Shown here: in pieces, positions 22,703 through 54,908 of the stretch
How positions within the stretch are numbered: position 1 is the stretch's first letter
Layout: each line of letters opens with the position of its first letter
Assembly (NCBI GenBank): GCA_033980235.1
Contig: CM067065.1
Span: 6,713,328-6,777,327, forward strand
Direction: 5' to 3'
Origin: Diadema setosum
Taxonomy: Eukaryota > Echinodermata > Echinoidea > Diadematoida > Diadematidae
Length of the DNA: 64,000 bases
Program-made: the position numbers and the translations under genes
Notes under the pieces: model-generated
Seen by the model: only the letters and a program-made list of their open reading frames with translations
The model's database searches: none
What the model was told of the DNA's origin: nothing

Positions 22703-22775
22703 ATGGGTAGAATATACAACTTCGTTCTGCTACTGTCATTGACTGCGGGTCTGCTTCCTGGGCAAACTACATCAG
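22703..22775 (+). CDS. Signal-peptide exon of the Ig-NACHT gene
   Basis: ATG at 22703 opens 24 codons: MGRIYN, then a hydrophobic run FVLLLSLTAGLL, then a small-residue region typical of signal peptidase sites. Donor gtaagt follows at phase 1, matching the Ig exon at 40181. In-frame ATGs lie upstream, but this one places the hydrophobic core correctly. Assignment to the distant Ig exon is inferred from phase and strand. Confidence 0.55.
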
Positions 22776-25700
22776 GTAAGTGTATCTTTATACGAACTTG
22801 TAAACCTATCAGTGGAGCATTGACTGGTCTCAACCTATAAATATAGGTTTTCCCGTCCAATCTCATGAGATTTGCATTTGTTTTAATAATGCGAGCATTC
22901 ATTTTCGAGCGAATTTGAATGATCATCGAGATCAACATTCAAAAAGCTAAGTAATTTATATATTCAATTTAATTTCATCAGCGTTCGAATTCCTGATTAT
23001 GTCACATAAATGTGTGAACAGCGCGTTCAAATTAAAAATACACATGAAGCGCATTAAATTCGCATCAGCACATCAGCTGCGATGAACATTAAGGAATTCA
23101 AATTACCGAATAGGTAAACATTTCCAGCATCTGGGCAGTGTTTTTCGTTGCTGCTCGTGTTCTTTGTGTATTCTCTTTTACATCTGTTTGAATAATGGTG
23201 CAATCACTCTCAGACATAGCCAAGGTGCCTGGTGCGTCAACAGAATCGACGGCTTAAGAGACTGAGAGAATGAACATCGAAATTATGAATAATGATTGGT
23301 CCATGGGCCAAGACCCGAAAAATGGGTTAAGTACCACCTGAGGTGGCAAAACCTTTTTGGTGTCATTTTGTTTGTCGGGCATAGATATGCTTATCAAGCT
23401 ATGATAACATTTCCAAATGAGAAGCTTAGTTATAATAAATGAATTTTTAACCAATTTGGTCTCGTTTTTATATCCGTATACTTCTGAATCGAAACTAACC
23501 GCTATACAAAGAAGAGCGCTGTCTTCTGTATGTCCACAGGTGTTCTGTTGTAAACGCGATGCGCTTAGACTTTATTCAAGGCAACGAAGGGAATATCCAA
23601 AGGGTTATGATGTCCACAACTGTCACGCGGTGCGCTTAGTCTTTATTCAAGACGGCGAAGGGAATATCCAAACTTATGATATAGCGTATATCCCTTTATC
23701 TAAAAACAACAGCAAAAAAGGCAATTCCTCGTGAATTTTGCCGTATTTTTCAATTATTCATCATTTTCCGGTGAAAACGCTACGGTGAAAACGCTAATGC
23801 CACGCCAATGTCGCTTTATTTCCATCTAACAATGAAAGATAATGCAAAAACAATGTGCCAGTACACTACAATACATTATGATAAATAATATTGTAAATGA
23901 ACAGAGTGATTTTTGTTTAAAACTGATGTAATTGTTGAGAGGGTATAGTATAAAAAAAAACAATATAGATAATCCCTTTTATGAGGAACTCTAGATATGA
24001 TAACGCTACATTTTTTTTCGTTTTTTTCTTTTTAGCATTGTTTACCAGAATATTGTTGTTAATCAGGCAAAAACAAAAAGACAAAAACAAAAACAAACCA
24101 CAGACACGGAAACAATTGTCACATAATTAGTCCATGGGCCAAGACCTGAAAAATGGGTTATTGGTTACATCTGAGGTGGTAGGTTCTAGTTGTGCATGTT
24201 GAATTTGCATATATCTAAGGACTATATTTTGCAATGATAGCATTTTCAGAGTAGTAGCTTAGTCATAGATTTCAGCCATTAACCCGACCAAGACCAAATA
24301 TTTTTTTTGACACTCTTTGACCAAAGACAGGCAAAGTGCGACCTTCGATAATTTCAAGGTTTTTAAACCAATTCCTCTGAAATTTGGCACATATTATATT
24401 CAGCATATGATGCTCTAAAAATGACACAATCAAAATTTCACCAGTTATATTAAATCAGAAGCACAGTGAAATGTAACAACTAACCTTGATCTCCGGGACG
24501 ACCTCCACTCGTACTTCCAGCTCGTGATGGAGTTGCGTGGCATCAGATCTCTCTTTCTTTCTTTCACCCCCTTATTTTGTGTCTTTGACCTTCATTGTCC
24601 TGTCAATGTGTTCTTAATTTCTGTTACAATACTGCGTCTTTACATTATATGACAATTGTTTTCGTGTCTGTGTGTGTGTGTGACGTGTGTGTGTTTTGCC
24701 TTATTAACGATATTCTGGTAAACAATGCTAAAAAAAAAAACCAAACAAAACAATGTACAATTATCATATCTAAGTTCCTAAACAAAGGGATTATCTATAC
24801 AACTGTTTTTATACTACCCTCTCAACAAATACATCAGTTCAAAGCAAAAATCACTCTGTTCATTTACAATATTATTTATCATAATGTATTGTAGTGTACT
24901 GGTACATTGTTTTTGCATTATATTTCATTGTTGGATGGATATAAAGCGACATTGGCGTGGCATTAGCGTTTTCACCGGAAAATGATGAATAATTGAAAAG
25001 TACGGCAAAATTCACTTGGAAATGCTTTTTTTTTTTGTTCCTAGATAAAGAGATATACACTGTATCATAAGCTTTGTATATTCCCTTCGCCGTCTTGAAT
25101 AAAGACTAAGCGCTGTGGAAATCATACCATTTGGATATTCCCTTCGCTGCCTTGAATAAAGACTATATAAGCGCACCGCGTTTACAACAGAACACAATCC
25201 ATGTGGACATATGCAAGTCAGCGCTCTTCTTTGTATAGCGGTCAGTCTCGATTCAGAAGTAAACGAACATAACAACGAGACCAAATTGGTTAAAAATTCT
25301 GTTATTATGACTAAGCTACTCATTTGGAAATGCTACCATAGCTTGGTAAGCATATCTATGCCCGACAAACAAAATGACACCAAAAAGGTTTTGCGACCTC
25401 AGGTGGTACCAATATCTGGTCTGGCCCATGGACTAATTATGCAAACGAAGGAATATCCCAATGCAATGTATCTCACACACATTTCAAAGCTCAAACGTGA
25501 CTTAAAACAAAATCGGTAATACGACTTTAATCACACTTAACATAACGATGATCTCATGTGATCTCTCATTATGTTGTATAGCAACACAATGTGATATCCA
25601 TTTTGATGGGGAAATAATATGAAACTAACCGAACAGAAAAATAACGTGAAAAAGAGATATCGAAATTGAAAAGATAACGCTGAACGTTGATGAATTTGAC

Positions 25701-28700
25701 ATTCATCAACCTAAGGATATTCGTAAGAATTGAGTAGAATTACAGGACTTGGTTATGATAATTGAATTTGAACGTTCAAAAGTCAGAGTTGTGTGCCTAT
25801 AAATGAAATTGAAACTGGTATTTGGTGCGAACTTGAACGTCTATCCAGCTGGCGCGAAATTGAATGCCAACTTTGATCCATTTAAATGAATGGATTTCTG
25901 TCTAAATTGAATGAAATAAAATCCAAAAGGAATGACATGAAATGAAATTGAATTCTCAAAGAATTATGAACCCTGAGAGTAGAACAGTGTCAAAAATACC
26001 TTGAACTTGAACGTCTTGTCATTAATTCGAATGCATATCTGATGAAATTTGGCGGGAAAACCTATACTATCACTGAAATGTGTGTATCAGAATGATGAGA
26101 GAGAAGACCAGAATATCAACAGGGGCTGTCTAAATATAGGATTCCCGCCCAATTTCATAAGATTTGCATTCAATTAAACGATGCGGTCATTCAAGTTGGA
26201 GTGAATTTGAATGATCACCGAGATCGACATTCAAAAAGGCACCTAGTTCATTCAATTGAATTTCATCATCATGCGATTTCATGAGTTTCTCAAACAGAGG
26301 TGTAAAAAGGGAATTCAATTAAAGATTCAAGTGCAACGCATATTAATTCGCATTAGCAACGCCGCACACTGACCAGAATGACCTCAAAGTGCGCCAAAAT
26401 TGTATTCCATTGTTTCTTTTTACCCATATAAGGTGTTTAGGGGTAATTTTGGGCGTAGAATTAAGTGAACATAATTTCAAATTCATATGACGTCACTGTG
26501 ATGCTGATTTTTCATTGGCTACGAAAAATCTGTCTATAAATGATTGTAAGGAGTTGATTTAAATCTAATTGAAATACCCTCCAGTCTGGGAGGAAGTGAA
26601 TTTGCATATGAATTTAGTCGGGTTGGAGGCATCCCACATGCAGGTGTTTGACAGCTATTGTTTCCCGGCATAGTTACGTTGCAGCAGCCAGCGTAGTATA
26701 GGCAGGCTCACAAGAAGTGAAGCTGCCACACCCTATCTTGCCACCAGACAGACCAGACGCTGCAGAGACTTGTCTAGCAGTGATGCCACAACTGGGGTGT
26801 CCAAGGCCCAACTACGGCTGTTAAGGGTATAGTGGAGCTTCGTCCAGATAAGCTCACACAATCACCGGGTCGAGACTCCACAGGTGTCTCCTGTTCAGCC
26901 GCTGCCTGGCCCGTTGCCCGGATTTCCCTCGCCGAGTTCGAGACGCACCCCCTCCACAGTAACGCCGGTTACACGGGGCTGGATCCGTCGCCTTCGCTGA
27001 ACCGCGGTCGGCCGGTCGAAGGACGTCGTTGTCGCCCCGACATACTCTCCTAGCGCTCCGCGTTCGCCGTCTCCAAGGACACACAGATGTCGTCATATAT
27101 ATGGAGAACGCCGATTCGCGAAGCAAAGTCAGTATAATAACATTCCCCATTAACTGATAAACCGGAACCATAAGTTTGCACTGAACTGAACTCTGAACGC
27201 TGACCGACATTGTGGTCAGGGATATGATTTGTTGTGGCAAGCCACATGTCCACGCCGTCTCATAAGTCAATATTGTGAGAAGTGTTGTAGTACTTGGTTA
27301 CTCAGTTTATAAGTCGGAAGATTAACATTGAGAGTTATTAGTTTTGGGGTTAGAAGGTTGTTAGTATTTGATATATTATGGGATAATAGTCATTTAATCT
27401 GCGAGATATGTTTAAGCTCTGAGCTCAGAAGACGATTATATTGTACGACCGGATGTATGATTTGAAGACTTGATTACACTTTAATAAATGCACACAAAAT
27501 TTCAACGGTACTTTATCTCTTCTTATATTTCATTTCGGGTGATCAAACTGCCTCATCTAGACCAATAAGCTAGTTCACGTGTAACACACTGTGACAATGA
27601 TGAATAAAGGCTTAAAAGCAATGTAAATCTTATAGGCTGTTTTTTATTCTTTAAAGATTAATTTTAAAAGGGGGTGATTTATCTTTTCACATTCACTGAC
27701 ACTGCTAATCTATTATCATTGAATACAATATGCTTACATACTATGTAACAGAAAGTGTATAAACATTCGGGTTTCGTTAAAAGAATCGAATTCATGCTAG
27801 AAGTCCATACACACGTATTGCAAATAATACTGTTGTCCGTGTAAATTAGTGAGAATATAAGTTTATGATCGCTGTACCTTTGGGTGAATTTCTTCACTCT
27901 ATTCTAGCAGGACATAATGTGTGATATAGCATCAATCTCTCCACTTTAGGCCTATGCCATATCAATTCATACAAGCGCAACACTCGAAAAACCATATTGT
28001 CTCATTTTACTGGAAAGATAATACATTGTGAAGTCAGTAATCAGGAAAATGAAAGGTTATAACTTAGCAACTAAGAATGAGTCTGCCGTGTATGAAAGTT
28101 TAATTGAAAAAGCTATAATGAAACATTTGTTTTTCATGAAAAATCTATCGGAATCACTATCATATGAAATTGTAAATTCATCCTCTGTTCCACAAGGATA
28201 TTTTTCTCATCAGTCAGTCGTCGGAAGCAAAGTTTTTTTTTTTTTTCTTTTTTGCTTCCGGCAACCCACAAAGTGTATGGGATCACAGCTGATGAATCCG
28301 ACGTGTATTGGTCGCCTATCAGGTCAATGACAGACATGTCCAACATGATCTGATGAGGCAAAATCGTCCGATGAGGATCACCCGAGCAATGTCTGACACT
28401 GTAGTCGGCCAACACAATCGGATGCATCAGACTGCGATCCAATACACTTTGGTAAATGGCCGGAAAGCAATAGACTTTGATTCCAAAGAGTAACCGACGA
28501 GAATAAAATTTCTGTGTTTTGGTGTATAACGTTCTATTTGCATATGTCAAGGGTGGAATCGAAGTATTTAGGTATCCGTACAGTATGTTTCGCAGAGGGA
28601 GTAGCTTATTTAGAGTAGTGGCTATGACAATATTAATGGACAATAATGGCTATGGCCTTAGCTATGTGCAATTATGTACTCTTTTATCTTTGGAATAGAG

Positions 28701-33818: not shown

Positions 33819-33878
<60 letters not shown>

Positions 33879-39800: not shown

Positions 39801-42800
39801 CACTCCAAGTTTGATTGACATTGAAACACTCGGTACAAAGTAATTTTAGTTTTTGTATATAATTATAGCGTTGTGGGCGGACGACGGGCGGACAGACACC
39901 GCAGTTGATCTCTTAGCCTCCCTTCACCTCCAGTGGGCTCGGCAAAAACTGCTGCAAACACACTTTACCATTCATGTTATGACCCCAAACTAAAAGGAAG
40001 TATAGAAGAAGGATGACTTTTTTCAGAAAATGTGAAAAATTCAAAATTGCCTCTATTGAACCATTTCACTTTTTTTTTTTTGGGGGGGGGGGGGGAGTCC
40101 TCACATACAATCAAGGGTTGCGACTTTTTGTTGGTTTTGTGATGCACGGTCACAAGTATGAATTATGCACTATCTTGTAGCCTCAGTGGTCAGCACTGAC
40201 CCTACGGTTCGAGGATGGAGAGGGGAAGGCATCCGATTGCATTGCGATATCCAGAAGGGACCTGTAAGAGCTGTGTACTGGGACAAGGTGACCACCTTGC
40301 AACGGGAGGAGATGAGGACGACGAAGGCTAGATTTTTCGATGGGGACTTTGAGAGCAGGGATGAACGGTTTCACATGGACCAAAACTTTGGCCTAGTTAT
40401 CACCGACCTGGAAGTGGCAGATGAGGGTCTCTACTACTGTCAGGTGCTGCTGGAGAATCTTGAGGTCTTTTACAATTCCACCATTATGAAGATAAACTGT
40501 AAGTAATATTTGTCATATCACATGTGATTTAAACTGAAAAGGTCAACTCAAGGGAAAATTGTGAAATGAAATTGAATAGTGCCGAAATTCTGACTTATTA
40601 ATAAATCATCTGCCCTAACTTCACACTAAATTTACGGATAATGAATGAGCTTCCTGCCTCTATCATTAATACATCATTATTTGTACTATATTTCTGACTA
40701 TTTAGTTGATTATATTGAGTACACTAGTCTTTCATTCTTTTTTTTTCGGGGGGGGGGGGGGTGGGGGATGGAGCAGCCGAATCAGTCACTGGTAATAAAT
40801 AATAATTATGTTCCCAAATGTTCAGTAGTTTCCGTGAATGAAATCACACTGACAACACTCCTTCACTTTATAAACCAAGTGAGAAATAGGAATCCATGGA
40901 TTGCTGTTTACTACTTACTGAGCAGCCTATTTTGGGGAGCTGCCACTGTGTGTTGCAGTTCACTTTTCGTGATTAACCTCAACCGATACCTATTTTCATT
41001 CTTGCCATTTGTACTTTTCATGATACGTCAATGAAACACAACCATGTGGGCCTATGACTAGCAAGCAGATATCAAGTCTGTTAGAAGTGTTGCAGAGTAG
41101 AAAAGAACAAGTCCATGCGCTGCGGCTACTTCTCTACATGTTTTTTCAGGCACAGTATAAAAGGACCAATATGAAACATGTCATTTCACATAGCATTTCA
41201 TATCTCTCTAGCGATGGCATCGAAACATACCATCGAGGAATGCGTTGATATGAGTCAGTTTCATCAAGGCCGGTGTATATACCAGACTCCCTCTAACACT
41301 GCTTCCTTCAACCTTACGTGTGTCGTGAGTGGATTCAAGCCAAACATTTCCATGCTGTGGACGCAGGAGTCGGGAAAGAAACTTAATTCCGCGGTTGCAC
41401 AACAGACAACGCTACCTGACGGCACGTACGAGAGGATCGAGACAATAGTTGTTTCATCAAGTCATGGTGCAGAACAAACCTTGACGTGCATGGCTGTCGG
41501 TGACCCCCTGAACGGAACATCAACCGCAGAAATCATCATTCTTCCTTTACAAGGTTTTGTGAAACGTTCTCATTTAAGTGCTTCCATAGGATAACTGGTA
41601 ATATCAAACAGAGGTGACGATGTTTCAGTAAATAGTTTGATTCAAACTTGTTTACATGTAGGTACTCAACAACCACCCTACAATGGGGGCTGTTCGTTAT
41701 TCCGAAGATTTGCTGTTCCGAAGGTTCGTTATTCCGATGGGTCGTTAACCCGAAACAAGCAAATTCTCTATACCTAGAGGTTCGTTAATCCGAAGGTAAA
41801 AAAGGGTTCCTTAATCCGAAAATTTGTGGCGTTATTCCGAAGGTTCGTTACTCCGAAGTTAATCCGAAAATAAAATTCGGAACAATGAACCTTCGGAATA
41901 ACGAATCTTAGGAATGAAGAGCCTTCGAATTAGCGAACCTTCGGAATAACGAGCTGTAACCCCCTACAATAACCATAGTGCAGGTTTCACAAGCCAAATA
42001 ACCAATACAAACTTTTGAAAGAAAAAGTATACTATTCTTATGTAGTTTTATGATGCTGGCAGCAATAACGCATTCAGATTTATGCTTTACCTTAGTAATT
42101 AAAAAAAAAAGAGAGAGTGAAAATTAGGCCTCTGTTTTTGTAAACTTACAACGACGAAATTTAAAAGCAGGTACAACATAAAATGTACAAGAATTGTTTT
42201 GATGGTCTTTGATACAAATAATCTTTCCAAAGATGGCAATTGTACTCCTCTCTTGAGTTTAGACCTCAGATATTGTTTGAATTATTTCCACAAAGAGATA
42301 ACAATTGCACACTCAATCAAATAAAAACAACAAAACAATGGAATCAGGCATCTGCTTACATGAATTGCATTGGCCATTGTCTGGCCCCTCTCTTTCTGTA
42401 ACAAAAAACAAACAAACAAAACAGAAACGTTTGTGGGTAGGGCCTTGTGAAAAGTCTTTAAATAAAGGAATATCAATTTCGTTTCAAATGTTTATTTGAT
42501 CCATTTTTTCCAATATAATTTTATACATGAATAGAGATTCTGTTTAATAATATCACATAAAATATCAGTATACATATTTACAATATACATGATTCGAAGA
42601 CGGAAAATATGTGTCAAATTATTCCACTAACAAAATCATAATTATATTGTATTACCACATTTCCAAATAATTACCTCAGAAATTATGCAGAAGTAATTCT
42701 TGTGGATAAGGGATCATTCTTCAATACTTAGATTCATACAAAAATTGTTATTCCATGTACTTTCTACTTCTTTAATAGGGTTAAAGAGGTACAATGGACA

Positions 42801-43448
42801 TCGAATAGAAGAGTCGTGAAAAGTTGCTAGCACGCAATAAGCTTCCCTTCACTATCAAAGACATATGGGTCTCTCTCATCGTTCGACCACAATCTATACA
42901 AAGGGACCGCCCTTATTATAGAAGTGCACTTCTCTTATTTCGAATTTGATATCAAATTCAAACACCAGATGAAAAAAAAAATCTTTGAAACAATTTTTAC
43001 TGATTTACATCCTGTATTGCTGTAACATCTTCATCGTACCAGACAGGGTAGTGAAACATTCCTTTTAAGTTTCAAAAGAATGTTTGAAAGTCGTTATACC
43101 ACAACAAATCAAGTTTGTGCATTTCCACAATGTTCAAGTTTGTTAATATCTTTGACCTAAACACATACGAAGTTCCAAAGGTTTTGAGAACATTCTCAGA
43201 AGCTTGTATTCTAAATATAATACTACAATTTTAGTTAAGGTTACATTTTCTGTTCATTTCCGCCTATTATCAAAATGGTTTTCTAAAATTTGTTTTTTTT
43301 TTCTTTTTATAACGACACCTTTTATTATCACTGTTGAGGTTTTCATTCATTTTCGGCATGACGAACCCTATTTCATATTCGGATTACAAACGAATCTTCG
43401 GAATAACATACCTTATTATGGAGACGCGGAACGTTTTTTTTTTTTTTT

Positions 43449-43487
<39 letters not shown>

Positions 43488-46453
43488 GGGTGGGGCAGTA
43501 CGGGAGGGAGTACTTCAAGGTAATTTTTAGAAATTGAAATTCATGGATGTTGTCATTGTTGCCCCGATCCCCCTTTTTTGACGAGACAAAAGTGTGCGTG
43601 TCCCCCCCCCCCCCTCCTTCCGTTCCGCCTACCTTGTTACAAGTGACCGTGCACCTCAAAACGAACATAAAGTCGCACACACTGATTTTGCGCGAGGACT
43701 GAAAATAAATGAAATTGGTCAACCTAGCCGAACTTGACTTTTTCATATTTTCTGAAAGAGCGGATCTTCTTTTACATTATGCTAAAATTTGGTATCATGA
43801 AACGGGCAGGAAAGTGTGTTTTTTTTTTAGCAGTTTATCTCAAACATGTTTGGTAGAATAGTGTGATTAGGTGTGTTTTTAGAATCCCTTTTTCATTTCT
43901 GAAAAACCTTGTCCACACTATTCACTTTCAACTCTAATAACTTTCGAAAGGATAGTGCTACTGCATTGAAAGTTGGCATTAATTATGGACAGAATGTGTT
44001 AATGAGGCATGCTTGATTTCAGTTTAATCTGATAATCCCTTCATTGTTGTTACTCTGGTGGTTTACTTCCTGTTTTCTGTCCCATTCATCGCACAGCCAG
44101 CGCGGTTTGGTAAAGATTAAGCGCTTGAATAGACACTGTACTTCAGAGCCTCTTTTCTCAGTTCACACTTTTCTTGAGTTTGTGCTTTTCTTTCCAATAT
44201 TTAGATAGGTTAGGAGAGTCCATTTGATTTAAGTTATACATCATTTTAAAGCTTAAAGTCTGCTCTTTCAGAATATAGTCTTAACTAAAAATTCATGTCT
44301 GGCGACTTTTTGTTTGTTTTGAGGTGCAGGGTCACATAATATGTATCTTATTTTCGGAAATATGAACCTTCGGAACTGTATCCGTTGCATATTTTTAGTA
44401 AAGAATTGCTGCTGTATCATTATCATATTTCAGGAAAACGTGGCAATTTGGGTCTCATCATTGGACTGGTCATTGGTGTACCTGTTGCCTTAGCCATTGC
44501 ATTTCTTCTTGTTCGAAAGTTTCTTCAACGATCCTACCGTGACTACCTATCTGTTATCTTTGGTAAGAATCGAAACCATATTTTTTTTTTTTTCTACACG
44601 ACCGTTCATTTTGTTTTCAGTGTTCCTTCTTTTTTTCTGATCCACCACGTCATGTTGATTTGCTATGATACAAAATTAGGGTTATTTAGGTGCCTTAAAT
44701 TTCCTTGAACGACCCAAATTGTTTCTTAGTAATTTTTCTTACGAGAATAATGGTGTATTTTCTAACTATTCCAAAGAACGATTCTTATCTAAACAACATT
44801 ACTTGAAAGGCATTCATTAGCTTGGAGGAAATTATCTATATGATATCCAATACATAGAAATAAAGGTAATGAGTTTTGAGGCTCGTTTTAGTTTACAAAA
44901 GCCAATGGTTAAAATGATATCAGTCGTTAATCTGACAGACATGGTTGTTGGTTTACGGTTGCCATGGCAACCAGCAATATCGGACATAGCTAAATTACAT
45001 ATCAAAATGTTTGTCATAAGATTTTAGGACAAGTGACCAAATTTGGTTGAAATCGGGTAAAGGGTGTAGGCGTAGCAAACGAAAATATGGTAGGGGGGAG
45101 CACAGTGTGCCCTCCCCCGCCCCCCCCCCCCCCCCCCTTGGGCTTTATAGGGTTAACGTGTCGCTTGATCAAGATACCGCTATGTCAGGCCATTAGATGT
45201 ACAAACAAGAAAGCTAAGACGAGGGGGAAAACGTTTTGCCCCTCACAAACCCAGAGAAAAACAGATCTCTCCCACTTTGCCACTTCATGGTAACACCGGC
45301 ACTGCAAAGCCGAGTCTAGTGGCTCACAGTTGTTGTGACAGCGTCACTACTCAGTTGTTCGCCATCCGGTCCGGAAGGATAGAGGAAGCTAGGCGATCAT
45401 CATCGCAACTCAGCTAACATTTGGACGTTTTTTGAACGTTCTTGAAACGTTCCAAGTTCGTAATTTGGACGTTTTGTCAAAACGTTTTTAGAACTTTTTT
45501 TGTGGCAGGTTTTTGACGTATTTAAAACGTTTCCAATGGACGTTATCATTTCAAAAAAAAAAAAATCTTTTGGAATTTTTAAGGAAATGCAGAAAACCCT
45601 CTGGACGTTTTAGACGTCAGTAAAACCTTTTAAGAATATTCAAAACGTTCTGTGGGCGTTCTTCGGACGTCCAGAAAACCTTTGAAAACCGTCCAGACTG
45701 TTGAAAAAAAAAGCGTTTTAAGAACATCTAAAAAGTCTTATGACCCGTTCCAGAACGTTTAGAGAACCTTTCATATCCGTCTAGAACGTGCAGACAACCT
45801 TTTAAGAATGTTTGATGTTTATTTTTTACTGGGTATTTAAAAAAAAGACATATTATCAAGGCACAATCTCTGATTAAAGTACCCTAATCCTAATCCTATA
45901 TAATCCTAACCTAACCTGTTCCTAATGTCCTATCACCTATACCTATTGCATCCTATTCCCAATTGAAGAATATGTGTCACATTCTTATATATACCAGCAA
46001 AATGTTGTAATGCATGAAGACATAGTTACTAAAACTAGATCACACACACCTTAATTAGGCCTATTACCACATGAAAATGCCTCTTCATAACACAATTTGA
46101 AGTCGTGAATAACTGAACAATAACGTAGGTGAGTTTATTGTTAACACAGAAAGTTTGAAACCAGCATAAATCTTCATTTCTAGATTTCAATGTCTTTTAT
46201 CTATTACCACTAGTTTTCAAATCTCATTTTCTTATTTGAATATTCATAGATAGGCATGGATATTCATGATTAAGAAAGCAATGACGAAAACGTAGCGGAC
46301 CAAATAAAAATGTTTTTCAAACGTTCATAAAAGACAAAGTCGACGTAGCAGGCGAGATAAAAACGTTTTGTGGACGTTTATAAAGGACGAAGACGTAGCA
46401 GACTTAACAAAAACGTTCTGTGACGTCCATTGACGTTTTTAAAACGTTCCCCC

Positions 46454-46486
<33 letters not shown>

Positions 46487-49400
46487 GTGCTTTGCGGTAA
46501 ATGCTAATTCCCAACTTAGACGTTGTTATGTACCCGTTAAAAAAAAATCCATTTTATAAGAAGACGTACGGACCCTAAAAAAACCCTGAAAACGTTATGT
46601 GTTTGCTGGGAAGCTGTCTGTGCCGCTCCCGGCGGCTCCTGCTGCAGCTGCATCAAACCATCGCTAATGCGCTCCAATTCACGCTCTGAAAACACTGGTT
46701 CATACGCGTAAAACACAAAGGTAACCAATTTGGAGATTGTCGATCGTATATGATAAATAATGACGTTGAAACATTGAAACTTTTGATTCAGAATAAATAG
46801 CACGAATGAATTAAGGACGTTCCTCAGTTACGTTTGTGCGCATCCTAGCTGAGCAGGTTGGTCAGATGAGCTGAGCTGAGATAATAGTAGATCGAGCTAG
46901 AGTGTACTACGTACAGACACCCGACAGCTTCCCACCGTGGCCGCGTTGGGCGGCCTCGCTCGGCCCGCATGCCTGCCGACTGTACACTCTTAAAACATCC
47001 GAGTCAGAACTGACCCGGAACTGGGTCCGTTGGGGTCACACCGTTCCAGGTCAGAAATGACAAGGAATGGGGTCAGCTATGACCCATTCAGAGTCATAAA
47101 TTTGGTCAGGGTGACCCCATTTGGGGTCTTCATGACCAAATTCGAAGTCATTTCTGACCCGGAATGGTGTATGACCCCAACGGACCCAGTTCCGGGTCAG
47201 TTCTGACTCAGGATTTTTTAGAGTGTACGCGTTACGTACTACGCACAGTTCAGCGGTCCGAGCCGCATACATGGTCGGCTTGGAAATGGAAGTGAGCTGT
47301 TTCCATTTCAATTCCGTAGATCTGTTTTGTGACATGCAGTACATTATTTGTTCATCAACATGAGCACCACTAGTCGAGCACCACTAAGTCGGGGACAACT
47401 ACTAGACTAGGTATTGTAACAAACAAACAAACAAAAACAAACAAACAAACAAAAACATAAACACATATGGCACACTTTTTATCTTTAAGTTTAACAACTA
47501 AAAACTATCTGAGTATCTCTCACTTGCATCCAATTAAAGGCATAATTTACCATTTGCAGGTGAAAGCATTAGTGCTTTAAAATAGTTCTAAAATGTGAGT
47601 TAGGGATAGAAACAACCACTGTCAAAATTTGAATCCGTATAATTGATGTGAAGTGTTGTTAAATACACAAAATGTGAACAATAGTTATAATAAAAATGTT
47701 TCCAGACTAAACCGTATACAGTTACGGTTTACTGAGAAAAAACCTGATATCTCCTTATATTTTAGGTTTTATTGCAAATATTTCATATGGTAGGATGTTT
47801 TATGATACAACAGACCTGCATATATGCATCAAATGTGATATCTTGAACATTTTTGAAATCACTGCTCCCAAAGGTAAACTGGACCTTTAATATCATTACG
47901 GGCTGTGCAAGGGAAATAAAAAAGAAAATAACAAAAACGCACATGCTCCTTCCTTTCTGAATATTTTCCAAGCAATCACTACAATTTTGACAATTTTCTT
48001 TTGAAAAATACATGGGGTTTTGAGTTTACAGCATGAGATTCATGAACCCATCCTAGATCAGGGTATCTCTGCATTGGTTCCTGACCAGATTTGGGGTCTT
48101 ACGATGATTTTTGTCGCACGGAGGCGCTGCCATGGTAGCACAAAAGCGAGCGCACGACCACCCCCCCCCCCCCGATGTTACAATTGTTCTGCATTAAGTA
48201 ACCCTTCTTGTACAATTTGATCAAGTTTCATGAAAATACCATTGGTTTTGAATGTACAGCATGACATTCATGGTCCCCACCTAATCAGGGCACCCAGGAT
48301 AAGTTTATAACCAGATGTTTGGGTCCCAGGGTGATTTCTGTCATACATTGGGGTGCAGCCGGCACAACAAAAGAGCACCCGAACCCCCCACTCACCCCCC
48401 CCCCTCCCCCATTTTTATTGTGTTTCTGGAATTAGTAAGCTTTGTTCTACAATTTTGTCAAGTTTCGTGAAAATGACATAGGTTTTGGATGTACAGCACG
48501 AGATTCTTGAACCAACCCGATCAGGGCATCCCTGGATAGATTTATGACCAAATCGTAGGGGTCTTCAGTGATTCCTGCCTCACGTGGGCATTGCTAGCAC
48601 AGAAACGAGCACACGAACCACCCATTTTTACAAGCTTTATGCATTTAGTAGCCATTCTTCTATACGATTTAGTCAAGTTTCATAAAAATGACATGGGTTT
48701 TGAATGTACCGCATAAGTTTTTTTAACTTTCTCCTATAGCCCACCCCAAACAGAAAACGTTCCTGACAAGGATTTGAGAGATTCATTGTTTTCTGCCGCG
48801 TGAAGGCGCTGCTTGCCCAAGAATGAGAGTGTAAACCCCAACTTGAAAACTTTTTCCTCGTTTTGGGTACCTTTCTGTGCAATTATTGCAAATTTGGAGA
48901 AAATTAAATGGATTTTGAAAGAATTATGGGGATTTAGGTTTGCCATTGCCGATTCTGTTGCCTATCATGGCCAGGCCTTGTTCTCATAGCGCTATCATTT
49001 TCATACTTGACGGTAAATGTAATATGCGTCAAAGTCCCCCAGACGAAAACAAGTACACGAACCTGTGGTTTTATTTGCATATTTTGGCCTTTGGATGGGT
49101 CAAAGTTACGGTATGGAAAGTTTGAAGAAAATGATACGGACTTTACTTTAACTGAGGAACGTCCTTAAATGACAAGAATAACGTGACTGTGCGGTAGTTA
49201 TGGTCTTTGGAGCCTGATGATTGATAACGTGTTTTTTTTTTATGGTAATAAAAGTTTTGATGTAAATTGTGCTCTTAAACAAGAAAAAATAATAGTAAAA
49301 TCTAGAGCGCTAACGAGGTAGTGAAATATTTTTTAATTATTATGATCATATGAAATATATCAAGTTGGAATAATATTCACCGCGAGGTTTTAATAGTGAG

Positions 49401-52400
49401 TGTACGCCCCAATAGCTAATCACACACGTTCAGCGCAAAAATGTTCACGCTTTCAGAGTAGCCCAAACAAATGAGTACATGAATATAAGAACGACCCAAG
49501 TCCAATTTTTGGCCAAATTTAGTTTGACATGGGAAATTGTAGCTTATGCATGGACTCATCTTGTGTATAAATGATAAATCCTAAGTACCCCCGGAAGTGC
49601 CTGAAATAAATGAGTTAAATCTTATATGAATGTAAACATGAAGGACTTGGGTCGTTCTTACATTCATATTATAGCGCCCTCTCTCGTCCTCTCATCTCTA
49701 TAGCAGAATATCATGTATATGAATCAAAGAACGACCCAAGTCCATATGAATCAAAGAACGACCCAAGTCCATCACACAAAATGGCCTCTCCACAATTAAT
49801 GTAAATGTTAATCGTCATAATAATATATGTTCTAAATTGTATATACAATGTTGCCTTCCCATCACAGTTAAATAGAATATTATTGGACAAATAAAAAAAT
49901 ATGAAGTTTTTTTAAGTTTACTTGAAATGGTCATCCATGGACTTGGGTCGTTCTTATATTCATATACTCAAATGGCTGCATTCAGCTTCAAGTAACAAAG
50001 ATCGCAGCGCTTGTTTGATTTTAAGTTACATTTTCTTAAATGTGAACGATAAGCCCTGTGGTGTGTTTGGTCAATCAAAAGGCAATAATGTTAGCTGTAA
50101 GGAGATCTTAACTTGCATTTTAACATTACTTTTCTTCTCCTTTACAGGCAGACCATAAAAAATAATACTCATATGCCTGCAGAAACTGTTGAAATTTACT
50201 TTAAAATCGAGGAGACGAGTAACGTGTAAAATAGCGTTATGATACCATGGTCTCATCTGGGTAACGCCGAATGTGTTAGATATTACCCACAAAAAAAGTA
50301 CCTCGGAAGGATTGCTATCTTACAGCATACCCGATCGTGGTTGCAATGTAAGTTCTAATGTCTATTACAATATATGGGGCCATCTACAGCTCTCATCTTG
50401 CGAGACGAGAGCTAATCGCCTGCAACTGCTTGGCAGCTGCATCCCATTCGTTTCTAATGCGTGAGGAAAATACAAGAAATGAGAAAAAATCTTCATTCAA
50501 ACCACTAATGGTCTGAGTAAATTCACTGTACTTCTAAGGTAGTTTTTGGCGGATTCAAGAGTGTCCTAAATGGGATCGAGAACGGAACAGGGTCTTTTTA
50601 TTTCTTTACATTGAAAAAAAGTCTTTTTTTATGCGTATGTTTAAATTTTCGTCATAGTTTGCAGATATTTGTGCCAGTGTAATAAATTATACCAATGGAT
50701 CCTATTCCCCCTGTAGTCTCTAAAAGCTGGCCCCTAAAGTTCTATAAGTTCCTAGTAAATAGTACACAAGAATGCGTGGAAGGTAAACTGCCGTACTCAG
50801 GTGAGCGTGAGACCCCTGAGTCTTTGTTTAAGGTCAGAAATAAAATTGCCCAGTTGAGAGCATTCCAGAGGGATCATACAAAACGTAACCTGTTCCATAT
50901 GGTTATATCCACGCAATGATTAAACTGCTCTTTAGGGCTTTCAGAATGTCGTTAAAAAACTGGCAGAATGCGGCAGTTGTTTTGTATCATCTTTGACTTT
51001 TTGTGATACCTTATATCAATATCAAAATATGTCTATAATTCACAGCTCAAAAACGTGAACAGTCCAGACATATCAGATTCTAAAACAGTTATCATGTCCT
51101 TAAGTTCTTACAATTATACAAAGTAATCGTTTTCATGGCGATAAACCTGTCCCCCTCAATGCATCTATGATGATGGTTATTCCACGCATTTTCAAAGTGG
51201 TCTCGCTACAAACTACAATTATTGACTTCAAATACACATATCTGTTAAGTATTTGGTCACAATCGGTTACTCTCAGCTATATAGCAGTTCTGCTATTTCA
51301 GTATATTCCTGTTATTTTGCACGAGATTCATTAAAATTAAACTTCTGATAAAATTACATCCCGGCCGTCAAGGGAATGAATGAAGTATTATAAACTTGTA
51401 GTCGTCATGTTCTTTTACTGCGAACCCAGATTAATAAGGAGGAATTGAAAATGGTTACCGTATTTTTATTATTTTTTAGGGGGAGGGGGATTTATCTGTT
51501 GTTTTACTTGCTCTCATGTTTAATGAAAACAGATGAATAATCACATTGATACGTAAATCACCTTTACAAAATGAAGAAGAAAAGTCATTTATAACTGTAG
51601 ACAAACGAACACATGTGCTTCTATAATGCTGTACGTAATCTATCTACAAATTCTTGACCTTGCATTGATCTGCTTTATTACATTTACCTATACACTTCAA
51701 ATGCAAGCGTTAGGTTAGCATTACTGCATTTGCCTGTTTTTATTTCCTTATTTCAAGAACCATCACGCAGCACGTTGACACCTGACCAAATACAACAATG
51801 CAAAGAAGAGCTGAAGGCGTATTACCGTGAGTCACTACGCAATGTCACGGTAGATCCATTGATCGTGATGGAACGTATTGCATTCGATAAGATTTACACC
51901 GATTTGAGTCTATTTGACCGAAGTAATATGCGTAAGACCCAAATTACGTACGAGGATCTTTTGACCAACATTGAGAGTGAAGATGGCTCAAATCATTTTC
52001 TAATCGAGGGTGAGGCAGGTGTCGGTAAATCAACACTTTGCGCTAAAATTGCCTGGGACTGGTGCCAGGGAAGAATTCTCCAGGATGTGGACATGGTGAT
52101 TCTAATTCCTCTTCGACAAGTCTATAAAGAACGTGTTAGATATTTTCTTAAGAGGTATTTATCTGATTCAAATAGAGCAAGATTAAAGGCGATAGACGAC
52201 TACATTTCGACAAATCCATCTAAAATTCTTTTTGTGTTTGATGGGAACGACGAGTTTTTCACTGTCACAAATAATGAGATCTACTTAATTTTAAAAGTAC
52301 AGAAATATCCTTCATGCAAGGTAATTGTAACAACTCGCCCAAATTACACATATGAATTTAGGGATGACGTGTATGTTGGAGATTTTTACACTTTTTTCAG

Positions 52401-54363
52401 CGTCGAAGGATTTACCACTGAAAATATAGAAACTTATATTAGGAAGTACTTTCGAATGAGCGATAAAGACGCTCTTGCAGAAAACTTGATCAGTTTCATG
52501 GAAGAAAATGATGTTATTCGGTCTAATATGGCCCCCATTCCCATCTACTGTGCAATGCTTTGCCTCATGTGGAAGGATTTCTGTGAAGACAGACCAAAAG
52601 AAGTGCAGCAACTACGAACTTTCTCCAATATCTTTCAGAAAATGATCTCTTTCCTAAAAGAACATTACGCATGGAAATGTTGCAGAAATCGTGATAGATT
52701 ATGTCTCTCTGAGTGTGTAAAGGAAGCTGGCAGAGCGATTGAAGATGTGAGTGAGATAGCACTGATCGGTATATTGGAAGGAAATCGTTCATTTCCAGAA
52801 GAAGAGTTCTGTGAGTGCCTGGAGTCGATGCAAACATGCGGCAAAATCGGAGTTATGAAAGAACGGACAGATGTCAGCAGTATGACACGTCGACATGATG
52901 TCGACACTCCATGCGTCCCTGTTACAACCATTTCGTTTCCCCAACAGTTGTTCCAAGAATACTTAGCAGCGGTGTATATTGTGAAATTATTCACCGACAA
53001 TCATGATGATCATACCAAGTACAACGACATGAAAAGTAAACTTCTTGATCAACATGAGAACTTCCGTCACTTGCTCTACTTCACTTCAGCTTTAAGCAAT
53101 GAACTTGCTCTTGATATCATCAAGGACCTGAAAATGGCAGATGACAAGTATTTCTGTGTTGACGTTGCGTTTGAGTGTCATACTGAGGAGGCCGTCAGAG
53201 CAGTGGGAGAACGATGGAAACATTACGAATTAGCATCAAATATGTCACAGCATACGCAGTCCGGAGTTGTGTTTATGGTGTGCTGTAAACAGGCGGTGAG
53301 TGACATTGCTTGTATACGAAAAACCATGTTAAGCCACAATTAGATCATGGAAAAAAATGACCATGCAATAAGTGATCAATGTGCCTTTGCCTTTCTCAAA
53401 GTTTGATTTAGTGCAAAATAGCCAACCATCCTCCTTCGATAATACAGACATTTGAAATCATGACATGGTTGAAGGATAACACTTTAACATTTGAGTTCAT
53501 GGAGAAGTCGAATATCTGTCTAGAAATTATGTTGGTACAGATAATTTCCTCTTTTTATATGATGAAGTGAGTTGGTTGATTCTAAACTGCCATCCCATTT
53601 ACTTTATGTCTTGTTGACCAATTGTCAATTGTGGAGGCAATTAGAGTCTGAACAGTGTAATCGAGTCGAGCAATATTTTGAAAATGACAAAGTGGGCTTT
53701 ATACAAATATCTGGGAGAGAAAGTATAAACGTGTTTTACACTCTACACTGTAAGAACATCGGTGTTAGATTTAACACCATGGGTGTTAAATCTAACACCG
53801 ATCAAGTCTATACAGAGGACAATACCCACAGGTGTTTATAGGTTTGTTGTGATGGTGTTGAAAAGTGTTCATCTGGCACTTCGTGGTGTTAATATGGCAC
53901 TTCGTCTGGTGATATATTTGACAACAATTTTTCAACAATGACACCACAAGATGTTGATTTAATATTGCTGGTGTTAGCGTCAATGGTATAACACCCGCCC
54001 AACTTCAGTAGTGGGCCACACCAACTGGTCATGTGGTGTTACTGTTGTGTAAATGTGTTCACGCCTTCTTTTCAAAACTCAAGTACTTTATCGGAAAATT
54101 CTTAATTGTCTTGTTGAAGTTCAAAATCAACAAGAAGAACAGTAACTAAGAAAATATTCAACAAACATTTTATGTTTTGAAGTGACACCAAGAGGTGTTA
54201 TAACATCACAAACATGAGCACCAGAAATTTAACACCAGCTCGGAGTTTCATATTTAACACCAGACTTTTCGCAGTGTATAGTACTATTAAAAAAAAAGAT
54301 GAGACCGGTCTCTAAAAATTACCGATGCCAACATGCTACTGCATTCACATGACAACCCCCTCC

Positions 54364-54420
<57 letters not shown>

Positions 54421-54908
54421 TACATTCACATAATGTGGCAAAGGTCTCCACCCCCTCCCCTAACTTCCGAAAAAAAATATGCAGTGTCTGAAGTACATCA
54501 CGTAGGTTTGGTTTGGGTCATACTCGCCAAGCTATGTAAGGTGAACTTTCAGATACTGTGCATTACGTTTTATCAGTACAAAGAGCATGACTGCTGATGC
54601 ACTCATGTCCATTATACCTCCCAGATCCACCTTAGTTTATTCTGATTTTTCATGTGAAAAATTAATTACGTCTGCACATTCAAACATCATTTTATTGTAG
54701 TAGTATTCACTACTCTCTATCTATGTTCATCCCCATTCAATAGCGAACGTTAACCATCAATAATGTGAACTACGGGAGAACCATGTCACGTGACCTGGCG
54801 GAGGGTTTGTGTTCCAGCTGCAGTATTTTGCGCAAGGTAACAATAACTGACTCACAATTTCACGCAGACTTCTACGAAATCCTTGGCGCAGAGGCTTCGA
54901 ACTCTCAG
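22703..54908 (+). CDS. Ig-Ig-transmembrane-NACHT-LRR receptor (six-exon model, 3' end open)
   Basis: Exons: 22703-22775, 40181-40498, 41212-41553, 44434-44562, 51758-53295 and 54744-54908. Together they make 855 codons without a stop. Predicted layout: signal peptide 1-24; V-like Ig domain with cysteines 46 and 111, W58 and DEGLYYC; second Ig domain with cysteines 167 and 223 and W180; transmembrane helix about 250-271 followed by basic residues; NACHT with Walker A GEAGVGKST at 372-380, Walker B ILFVFDGNDE from 444 and sensor TTRP near 479-482; leucine-rich segment from 801. NACHT proteins are STAND-type NTPases that oligomerise on activation, often in innate immunity. A membrane-spanning Ig ectodomain would place the sensor outside the cell; that role is inference. 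Every junction agrees in phase. Exon 1 is the weakest link because of its 17.4 kb distance. Further LRR exons are expected after 54908. Confidence 0.72.
22840..23110. repeat. Dispersed repeat, copy 1 (TGAATTTGAATGATCATCGAG family)
   Basis: The stretch aatttgaatgatcatcgag with flanking tagatttgcatt-like words recurs at 26138-26360 and 29645-29760 in the same orientation. Confidence 0.55.
23294..25440. mobile_element. Large foldback element, ~800 bp inverted arms
   Basis: The left arm 23294-24125 is matched in reverse by 24645-25440. Shared landmarks are the gtccatgggcc ends, cctgaggtgg, gggaatatccaa repeats, the ccgtatttttcaattattca block and the accagaatattgt block. The 520-base centre opens with another copy of the end sequence at 24128. 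No transposase frame is seen. It lies in modelled intron 1 of the Ig-NACHT gene. Confidence 0.8.
26138..26360. repeat. Dispersed repeat, copy 2
   Basis: It is similar to 22840-23110, including gatttgcattcaatt and aatttgaatgatcaccgag. It lies on the other side of the 23294-25440 foldback element in the same orientation. Confidence 0.55.
26640..27560 (+). other. GC-rich segment and possible LTR remnant
   Basis: 26870-27080 is unusually GC- and CpG-rich for this window. From about 27275 the sequence is AT-rich, with a TATA-like word and an AATAAA near 27482. This could be the 3' part and LTR of a decayed retroelement, or a CpG island. No family was identified. Confidence 0.25.
28235..28495. mobile_element. 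Palindromic MITE
   Basis: caaagtgtatgggatcac..gatgaatccga on the left matches the reverse complement of tcggatgcatcagactgcgatccaatacac on the right. The minus-strand 169-residue frame across it is therefore not a gene. Confidence 0.55.
28496..29644. other. Intron stretch without recognised feature
   Basis: No exon, RNA gene or clear repeat was seen. It lies within modelled intron 1 of the Ig-NACHT gene. Confidence 0.35.
29645..29760. repeat. Dispersed repeat, copy 3
   Basis: It repeats the 26138-26360 head: gatttgcattcgatttaacg and aatttgaatgatcatcgag. Confidence 0.55.
29810..30022. mobile_element. Short copy of the AACGTT-type element
   Basis: It ends gaaaacgttatgtgtttgct, the same end as the 45409-46610 element, and contains gacgttttaaagacgtttt. 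Confidence 0.5.
30023..31201. other. Intron stretch without recognised feature
   Basis: A G run at 30314-30328 and A-rich stretches were noted. No coding or RNA feature was recognised. Confidence 0.35.
31202..31442. mobile_element. Palindromic MITE with ~80 bp arms, copy 1
   Basis: It starts actcttaaaacatccgagtc and ends in its reverse complement. Inside, cggacccagttc and gaccccaacg are mirrored. A second full copy is at 46986-47225. Confidence 0.85.
31663..33345. mobile_element. Modular foldback cluster punctuated by GTTGATAAACGCA
   Basis: Arms 31663-32205 and 32745-33345 are inverted copies, with another inverted pair inside the centre (32395-32620). The 13-mer gttgataaacgca or its complement occurs about 16 times, separating blocks built of gaaagc/gctttc words. 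The segment gacctcttctcctcgggtcg and its complement is another shared module. Apparent proteins here of up to 168 residues are translations of this repetitive pattern. Confidence 0.8.
33346..34582. other. Intron stretch; poly-A run at 33824-33870
   Basis: A long A run and a short CA microsatellite (34552-34567) are the only clear features. Confidence 0.4.
34583..35110. mobile_element. TGTGACC-ended element, copy 2, left part
   Basis: It matches the first ~500 bp of the 10263 copy (without its insertion), from atgtgaccctgcattacaaa to gaaaaggggcctctaagaca. The right part resumes at 39946 after about 4.8 kb of other elements. Confidence 0.75.
35120..37690. mobile_element. Foldback element with ~16 bp tandem units in its arms
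   Basis: The left arm (about 35150-35360) is made of units like ttatacagcccatgag, drifting to ccgacacc-type units. The right arm (about 37375-37690) carries the reverse complement units, ctcatgggctgtatgac and ggtctcgtgagcc. The middle has no recognisable transposase. A 158-residue minus frame in the right arm is a repeat translation. Confidence 0.7.
37939..38375. mobile_element. MITE with CCCAGTCACATA ends
   Basis: The ends are gtcccagtcacata and tatgtgactggggc, inverted. The interior repeats ccgtgtagctgccgtg-like words. Noncoding. Confidence 0.65.
38586..38983. mobile_element. TTAA-flanked palindromic element in the tandem array
   Basis: The ends are ttaaagggactgtacagt and actgtacaccccctttaa. 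Internal words ggatatctcagccatt and gattttcatcaaata appear on both strands. A partial copy is near 20150-20345. Confidence 0.75.
39219..39645. mobile_element. TTAA-flanked MITE in the tandem array
   Basis: The ends are ttaacccgttcc and ggaacgggttttaa. Removing it with one TTAA restores the register of the surrounding tandem unit. Confidence 0.65.
39946..40155. mobile_element. TGTGACC-ended element, copy 2, right part
   Basis: It matches the last ~200 bp of the 10263 copy up to tgtgatgcacggtcaca. It ends about 25 bases before the splice acceptor of the first Ig exon. Confidence 0.75.
40181..40498 (+). CDS. V-like immunoglobulin domain exon
   Basis: 318 bases, phase 1 to 1, the classic symmetric phase of Ig exons. 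Acceptor cttgtag, donor gtaagt. It shows the first cysteine in RLHCD, the core tryptophan in VYWDK and the DEGLYYC motif before the second cysteine. NST near the end is a possible N-glycosylation site. A mobile-element end lies about 25 bases upstream of the acceptor. Confidence 0.88.
41212..41553 (+). CDS. Second immunoglobulin domain exon
   Basis: 342 bases, phase 1 to 1. It encodes FNLTCVVSGFKP, a core tryptophan in MLWTQ and TLTCMAV, giving the two Ig cysteines. Three possible N-glycosylation sites (NLT, NIS, NGT) support an extracellular position. The donor, G then GTTTTG, is weak but is the only nearby GT with the right phase. Reading through it meets a stop at 41592. Confidence 0.8.
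41685..41955. repeat. Tandem 16 bp units GTTCGTTATTCCGAAG with inverted end
   Basis: Forward units run from 41693 to about 41870. Reverse-complement units (ccttcggaataacgaa) follow at about 41890-41955. Lone units recur at 43372-43412 and 44345-44378, suggesting a larger foldback element split by insertions. It lies in the intron after the second Ig exon. Confidence 0.7.
41956..43371. other. Intron stretch without recognised feature
   Basis: AT-rich sequence with no exon or element recognised. Confidence 0.35.
43452..43485. repeat. (GT)n microsatellite
   Basis: About 16 tandem GT copies follow a T run. Confidence 0.9.
43641..44341 (-). mobile_element. TGTGACC-ended element, copy 3, reversed
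   Basis: It reads as the reverse complement of the 10263 copy, from aagtgaccgtgcacc to gaggtgcagggtcaca. It ends about 92 bases before the transmembrane exon. Confidence 0.75.
44434..44562 (+). CDS. Transmembrane-helix exon
   Basis: 43 codons, phase 1 to 1, acceptor atttcag and donor gtaaga. It encodes a glycine- and aliphatic-rich helix of about 22 residues, followed by RKFLQR as a stop-transfer signal and a short cytosolic linker. The orientation fits a type I membrane protein with the NACHT inside. Confidence 0.8.
44563..45408. other. Intron stretch after the transmembrane exon
   Basis: A C run at 45115-45137 was noted. No gene recognised. Confidence 0.35.
45409..46610. mobile_element. 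Palindromic element built of AACGTT/GGACGTT words
   Basis: The ends are cagctaacatttggacgttt and, inverted, aacgttatgtgtttgctg. Both ends carry dozens of aacgtt, gacgtt and aacgtcc words in different phases. The middle is AT-rich and noncoding. A short relative is at 29810-30022. Confidence 0.65.
46986..47225. mobile_element. Palindromic MITE with ~80 bp arms, copy 2
   Basis: It is nearly identical to 31202-31442 along its whole length, with the same actcttaaaacatccgagtc end. Confidence 0.85.
48005..48720. repeat. Tandem array, ~230 bp unit, about three copies plus a partial
   Basis: Units start at the ggttttgaatgtacagcatg-like word near 48012, 48243, 48480 and 48697. Each has a C-rich block after gagcacacgaacc. 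Unit lengths are about 231, 237 and 217. Confidence 0.75.
49478..49972. mobile_element. Foldback repeat with AGAACGACCCAAGTCC units
   Basis: The 16-mer agaacgacccaagtcc occurs forward near 49488, 49727 and 49755 and reversed near 49643 and 49939. The ends read tgaatataagaacgaccc and gggtcgttcttatattca. Confidence 0.7.
49973..51757. other. Intron before the NACHT exon
   Basis: No convincing exon. A 74-residue open frame at 50695-50919 has no recognisable family and lacks clear splice sites. Confidence 0.35.
51758..53295 (+). CDS. NACHT NTPase exon
   Basis: One long exon of 512 codons, acceptor tttcaag, donor gtgagt, phase 1 to 0. An ~80-residue helical lead precedes the NTPase. Walker A is GEAGVGKST (from 52009), Walker B ILFVFDGNDE, and CKVIVTTRP matches NACHT sensor 1. 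The winged-helix and helical regions follow, with a QEYLAAVY segment typical of NLR C-terminal helical domains. No stop or frameshift is present. The exon could instead read on to a stop at 53341-53343, giving an LRR-less form. The family is certain; the ligand is unknown. Confidence 0.93.
53740..54285. mobile_element. Palindromic element with GGTGTTAAAT words
   Basis: It starts ctacactgtaagaa and ends ttttcgcagtgtatag. Just inside the left end is a perfect 21 bp stem with a 3-base loop at 53758-53802 (arm starts atcggtgttagatttaacac). Many gtgtta/taacac words follow. It lies between the NACHT and LRR exons. Confidence 0.65.
54364..54418. repeat. (CA)n microsatellite
   Basis: About 27 tandem CA copies. 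Confidence 0.92.
54744..54908 (+). CDS. Leucine-rich repeat exon after the NACHT exon
   Basis: 55 codons, phase 0 to 0, acceptor caatag and donor gtaagc, not part of any long open frame. It encodes two related LRR-like units: RTLTINNVNYG.. then LRKVTITDSQFHADFY. The latter resembles echinoderm NLR repeat exons. Its phase fits the donor at 53296. It ends in an open donor, so at least one more exon is expected; none was recognised before 64000. Confidence 0.65.

Follow-up and report, generated by a model that had tools for sequence, protein, structure and literature searches.

Six exons on chromosome 7

We analyzed a 64,000-nucleotide stretch of chromosome 7 of the sea urchin Diadema setosum (G000:C7:6713328-6777327; hereafter the window, whose own numbering is used for its features) and identified six exons on the + strand that join exactly as one 855-codon frame. 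The predicted product is an NLR that carries two immunoglobulin (Ig) domains and a transmembrane (TM) helix ahead of its NACHT domain and leucine-rich repeat (LRR)-like repeats. The intron phases were 1-1-1-1-0 in order and all five introns were GT-AG. An earlier account drawn from the DNA letters, the sequence-only reading, had proposed this chain, and every exon was recovered in place with its strand, frame and phase.

The first exon (22703..22775) contains the start codon and a signal peptide (MGRIYNFVLLLSLTAGLLPG...), aligns with homologue N-termini, ends in a phase-1 donor and is separated by 17.4 kb from the exon for the first Ig domain (Ig1). A signal-peptide profile built from 26 homologue N-termini scored it at 26.9 bits, the top value among 54,549 peptide windows taken from the two strands, and the next non-overlapping one at 0.95. 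An alternative first exon in the window was ruled out, since the profile ranked 22703 alone. Ig1, of the V-set, is encoded by the second exon (40181..40498; homologue tblastn down to E 1e-36) and Ig2, of the C-type, by the third (41212..41553; Pfam match on the exon frame, homologue tblastn E 1e-51). The donor of the Ig2 exon is weak (G/GTTT), and the same donor was found at 3 of 5 paralogous loci. The fourth exon (44434..44562), placed by the exact join, paralogous TM exons and tblastn (E 1e-11), encodes the TM helix (~44451-44513) and a basic stop-transfer sequence. The fifth exon (51758..53295) encodes the NACHT ATPase and then a helical/winged-helix region (Pfam NACHT E 4.7e-24, tblastn E 0.0), and its reading frame stays open until a stop at 53341. 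Read off the sequence of this exon were GEAGVGKST (52009..52035), which we take to be Walker A, and ILFVFDGNDEF (52225..52257), of which we take FDGNDEF to be Walker B; both motifs are intact, and their residues are retained in the window protein and in ten aligned homologues. The sixth exon (54744..54908) encodes about two LRR-like repeats, had 86 homologue tblastn matches (best E 4e-17) and terminates in a donor, indicating that the gene continues in the 3' direction. When 120 Diadema proteins were searched against the window by tblastn at E 1e-3, they matched only the Ig1, Ig2, TM, NACHT and LRR exons, all on the + strand.

Pfam analysis of the joined protein gave matches to V-set (E 1.6e-10, as for the second exon) and NACHT (E 9.4e-24). 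The match for Ig2 was weaker, near or below the Pfam cut-off on the joined protein (C2-set_3 2.4e-4, ig 2.9e-4); on the exon frame C2-set_3 reached 1.9e-5 and C1-set 3.7e-4, the latter barely above its cut-off (21.2 vs 21.0 bits). Ig2 has an additional Cys pair ahead of the B-strand Cys. A profile of 8 Ig2 sequences found IgE heavy chains as its best PDB matches (38 bits), and the V-C domain order resembles that of antigen-receptor chains. The signal peptide, Ig pair, TM helix with stop-transfer and NACHT domain named by the sequence-only reading were borne out by profile, Pfam and sequence, with a weak Pfam match in the case of Ig2. Its LRR segment held in part: the repeats and their homologue matches are there, while Pfam found no LRR match in the joined protein and the 3' part is incomplete. 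No Death, CARD, PYD or TIR domain was detected in the joined protein by Pfam at E 0.01, and Ig-Ig-TM occupies the place of the N-terminal effector domain (Death, CARD, PYD) of NLRs. The protein has the signal peptide, Ig ectodomain and single TM helix with basic stop-transfer of type I Ig-superfamily receptors, and we infer a type I topology.

A structure model was made for the homologue P0024, not for the window protein, from an 18-row alignment (mean pLDDT 75.2, pTM 0.61). It contained two beta domains, a helix at 254-275, a NACHT core and three terminal strand/helix units alternating at a spacing of ~25-28 residues, and was of low confidence at the signal peptide, parts of Ig2, the TM helix and the linkers. 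In Foldseek searches with this model NLRC4, NLRP3, NOD2 and other NLRs ranked first, followed by V-C pairs of T-cell receptor, Fab and butyrophilin. In the model, P0024 joins a V-C pair of Ig domains to the core of an NLR.

A family of predicted surface NLRs in Diadema

With the joined chain as query, a protein search returned 193 matches; the 120 listed were all from Diadema (D. setosum and D. antillarum), and many of them aligned over 97-100% of the query length with 50-59% identity. From two protein searches, 132 Diadema proteins were among the matches listed. NACHT was present in 125 of these and Ig together with NACHT in 93, while 77 had Ig1, Ig2 and NACHT with Ig2 before NACHT. A hydrophobic segment lay between Ig2 and NACHT in 74 of the 77, being absent in P0048, P0051 and P0065. 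Some Diadema models carry two Ig1 and two Ig2 matches (P0001, P0002, P0004 and P0121) or have Ig recurring after NACHT (P0003, P0004 and P0062), and these are explained either by ectodomains of greater size or by tandem genes run together in one model.

In the genome (885.7 Mb, 96 contigs), we inspected the upstream sequence at 14 of 101 other scored NACHT matches, a hand-chosen, non-random sample, over 20 kb at 9 loci and 10 kb at 5. At 8 of the 14 loci the upstream sequence held exons for Ig1, Ig2 and TM and a short juxtamembrane exon, in that order and all on the strand of the NACHT exon; at the C4 locus the exons from the signal peptide through NACHT occupy ~6.4 kb. At these eight loci a phase-1 AG or GT was present near the homology edge at 71 of 72 junction sides, in a lenient test window of about four codons in which ~40% would be expected by chance per side. 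With tighter placement, the Ig2 acceptor fitted at all eight loci and the Ig1 acceptor at six. A chance join of the six window exons was ruled out by the whole-chain homologues together with the same exon order at paralogous loci. These data support the assignment of the exons to one gene, as the sequence-only reading had supposed from phase and order, with an Ig-Ig-TM-NACHT-LRR-like receptor as the predicted product. The predicted surface NLRs of Diadema are a large multi-copy family, judging by gene prediction and genome layout.

The reading frame is under constraint. The ratio of nonsynonymous to synonymous substitution rates (dN/dS) of the window NACHT exon was ~0.45 against the genomic NACHT L004 and ~0.49 against L002, and across nine loci Ig1, Ig2 and the start of the NACHT exon had a mean dN over mean dS of 0.37, 0.26 and 0.36, respectively. 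Since these ratios are below 1, there was no sign of positive selection at the scale of whole exons.

Known Ig-TM-NACHT proteins and the NACHT tree

The sequence-only reading had described known NLRs as cytosolic proteins devoid of Ig and membrane domains. This was incorrect because AjNLRC4 of the sea cucumber Apostichopus japonicus was published in 2021 as an Ig-Ig-TM-NACHT membrane receptor (PMC8699970). In the available text of that report, AjNLRC4 is described as located at the surface, binding microbes through its Ig part, dimerizing through that part and mediating phagocytosis dependent on beta-actin and Arp2/3; NACHT is placed at 600-757, TM at 483-503 and a second TM at 776-795, and the protein is described as having no LRR (PMC8699970). 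A second A. japonicus protein, AjNLR-new, also combines Ig, TM and NACHT; as far as the available text describes it, there are two TM segments and the NACHT is claimed to lie outside (PMC13133943). Likewise, the accessible portions of other reports include V-set-bearing NLRs in Chiridota heheva (PMC8913654) and transmembrane NLR architectures in sponges (PMC12909245), while the text available on pearl oyster places NACHT and Ig families within one region and describes no Ig-NACHT chain (PMC9646362).

The Diadema receptor resembles AjNLRC4, as described in the available text, in having two Ig domains outside, a TM helix and NACHT inside in one chain. It differs in being from a sea urchin, in its many copies, in its LRR-like repeats and in its NACHT lineage. 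AjNLR-new is like the Diadema receptor in uniting Ig, TM and NACHT in a single polypeptide and differs from it in its two TM segments and reported outside NACHT; no A. japonicus protein of AjNLR-new length (1197 aa) was found among the matches listed. A second protein search with a shifted length filter gave XP_011672506.1 of S. purpuratus (P0133; 31% identity over 93% of the query), with Ig domains, a TM peak at 359 and NACHT, and P0139 of Holothuria leucospilota. A search with P0139 returned a holothurian Ig-NACHT family that included P0152, P0153, P0154 and P0157 of Apostichopus; P0157 had no TM peak above threshold apart from its N-terminus. The Ig-TM-NACHT order that the sequence-only reading suggested seeking in relatives was found in Diadema proteins, P0133 and P0154. 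P0154 (BSL78_15342; NACHT 606-757, hydrophobic peak from 476) fits the AjNLRC4 coordinates in the part of the report available and may be AjNLRC4. By eye it has two V-like/C-like pairs as against one pair in the Diadema receptor, and its NACHT falls in a separate holothurian clade (100/99), apart from that of Diadema. The Diadema receptor shares the AjNLRC4 architecture; with a separate NACHT lineage, orthology is unsupported.

A Cys-pair motif, whose pattern was drawn up after viewing the sequences, was present in 12 of 13 non-Diadema Ig-NACHT proteins. The Diadema Ig2 profile reached at most 17.5 bits per domain in the non-Diadema Ig-NACHT proteins; IgE chains in the PDB reached 38 bits with the profile of 8 Ig2 sequences. 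These scores give no support to homology of the Ig module between sea urchins and sea cucumbers, and we dropped the view that such homology is demonstrated. Among the matches listed, titles and abstract beginnings of open-access papers held no Ig-NACHT protein of sea urchins, subscription papers and preprints being outside that scope. The Ig-TM-NACHT design is already known from sea cucumbers and the sea urchin family is the new part.

In a NACHT tree of 41 rows, from which the long rows P0146 and P0159 were left out, the window, 11 Diadema Ig proteins and the genomic NACHTs L002 and L004 (upstream sequence unread) formed one clade (99/95), with the Diadema Death-NACHT protein P0115 as its sister (100/99). 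P0133 was sister to the S. purpuratus Death-NACHT protein P0134 (98/84). Its NACHT region was 88.9% identical to that of P0134 over 405 aa, 68% to that of Lytechinus P0137 and at most 44% to those of the Diadema Ig proteins included. Most of the holothurian rows were Ig-bearing; together these rows formed the distant clade (100/99) noted above for P0154, and the program warned of long branches at the holothurian/Patiria junction. Ig-bearing NACHTs thus occupy three separate places in the tree. Approximately unbiased (AU) tests on a quick tree rejected both a single clade of all 23 Ig-labelled rows (p 4.7e-46) and a clade of Diadema Ig proteins with P0133 (p 1.2e-41), with sets that lacked L002 and L004, both of which nest with the window. 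With L002 and L004 added, the quick-tree test did not reject (p 0.23) while the careful-tree test on the same set did (p 1.7e-52), with a nearly equal likelihood drop (286 vs 288). Since the AU tests disagree between the two trees, the weight rests on branch supports and identities.

The closest NACHT lineages are those of the sea urchin Death-NACHT NLRs (P0115, P0134 and P0137), which bear a Death domain where the Diadema receptor has signal peptide-Ig-Ig-TM. Vertebrate NLRC4, NLRP3 and NOD2 are alike in NACHT, the helical fold that follows it and LRR; they are cytosolic and have a CARD or PYD at the N-terminus. Because Ig NACHTs occur at three places in the tree and an Ig-bearing and a Death-bearing protein of S. 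purpuratus have NACHT regions of 89% identity, we tentatively propose that echinoderm NLRs were repeatedly made surface receptors by a swap of the N-terminal module (Death or signal peptide-Ig-Ig-TM) at a phase-1 junction before the NACHT exon, which in Diadema would have yielded a large surface NLR family; we hold this at somewhat below even chances. Alternatively, Ig-TM may be ancestral and often lost, or P0133 may be a false gene model made by fusion. Module exchange is favored over both. A second NACHT group (C7:1429788, C7:901998 and C7:1456465; L009, L011 and L014) has upstream open reading frames (ORFs) that look Death-like by eye. Such ORFs were present at 3 of 4 non-Ig loci, and Pfam Death matched only at E 0.01 and in one of the three. 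Their apparent donors were read as phase 1, as were the NACHT acceptors of L009, L011 and L021. P0147 is an Ig-TM-NACHT protein with a Death domain at its far C-terminus (E 1.2e-11), and P0148 is listed with Death as well; both would combine outside sensing and an inside death module in one chain.

Predicted mechanism and rival explanations

We consider it likely that the window holds a single D. setosum gene for a type I receptor, with signal peptide and V and C Ig domains outside, a TM helix, and a cytoplasmic NACHT with winged-helix and LRR-like repeats. In such a receptor, the V-C pair would bind a ligand on microbes or other cells, and ligand-driven clustering would bring NACHT modules together beneath the membrane, where their nucleotide-dependent assembly would trigger a response. 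With no Death, CARD or TIR domain detected in it, the chain would have to couple to the cytoskeleton directly or recruit a separate adaptor; the output would most likely be uptake or a cytoskeletal response, as reported for AjNLRC4, or pass through such an adaptor.

Several observations weigh against a single functional gene. The homologues are gene predictions, and the window might hold an Ig-TM receptor gene adjoining the gene of a separate NLR, the two being in phase by chance. The TM-NACHT intron is 7.2 kb and a transcript spanning it is unseen. Among the listed Diadema proteins, 32 of 132 have NACHT without a recognized Ig and 7 of 132 have Ig without NACHT. At 6 of the 14 sampled NACHT exons no Ig pair was found in the 10-20 kb inspected: the C16 locus had the juxtamembrane exon alone in 10 kb, the C2 locus had nothing in 10 kb, and four loci at C7:0.90-1.46 Mb had nothing of the cassette within 20 kb upstream, three of these four being the ones with a Death-like ORF. 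The Ig1 acceptor was off its usual place at C7:12308799 and C31 (2 of 8 loci). Two genes are nonetheless very improbable, as the same cassette, order and strand recur at 8 of 14 loci, homologues read through all parts, and no Death exon was found in the window's TM-NACHT intron. A real family architecture of which the window copy is a decaying, no longer functional member deserves more credit, although we regard it as unlikely. The juxtamembrane exon present at all 8 Ig-bearing paralogous loci was not found in the window. No further LRR exon or end to the gene was convincing up to 64000, the best homologue matches being short or inside a minus-strand element, and reverse transcriptase ORFs lie at 57.5-59.5 kb. 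The window NACHT was 58% identical to ten homologues that share 73% among themselves, with a longer branch (0.5) in the NACHT tree; Ig2 was 69% identical, as compared to 71% among homologues. On the other hand, the six exons are open with intact splice sites, the Walker motifs are retained and dN/dS is 0.45-0.49. The homologue P0006 likewise lacks the juxtamembrane exon, and the reading frame survives its loss because the introns there are all phase 1.

The mode of signaling and the orientation of the chain can also be read otherwise. NACHT may be only a scaffold, with signaling by actin or adaptor binding and no nucleotide switch, an idea suggested by the reported action of AjNLRC4 through beta-actin, Arp2/3 and Ig-part dimerization, in the text available (PMC8699970). 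Retention of the Walker A and B residues by the window protein and the ten homologues argues against it, and we give it a minority share of our confidence. An inverted topology with NACHT outside has a published claim for a related build in the accessible text on AjNLR-new (PMC13133943). For the window protein it is scarcely credible, given the signal peptide, the one TM helix followed by basic residues and the four N-glycosylation sequons in the Ig part. In the 77 homologues, sequon density was 2.24 per 100 aa in the Ig part versus 1.18 in the NACHT part (raw values, uncorrected for composition).

The predicted Diadema family indicates that surface NLRs are not confined to sea cucumbers. Because a single chain would sense ligand on the outside and carry its NACHT switch on the inside, it becomes directly testable whether a NACHT can be driven across a membrane. 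Module exchange among immune receptors may have a clean example in the phase-1 junction. Mass mortalities have struck Diadema species, and the Ig-TM-NACHT family is an obvious place to seek recognition genes in Diadema.

Two other elements were noted in the window. Reverse transcriptase ORFs (RVT_1, E to 2e-25) lie on the minus strand at 57545-59482, downstream of exon 6, and this element occupies the site expected for the 3' part of the gene; when eight minus-strand window frames were searched with Pfam at E 0.01, one matched reverse transcriptase and the other seven had no match. Between the NACHT and LRR exons, a segment at ~53745-54290 is rich in AACACC/GGTGTT, has ends of about ACACTG...CAGTGT and by eye looks like a short inverted-repeat element.

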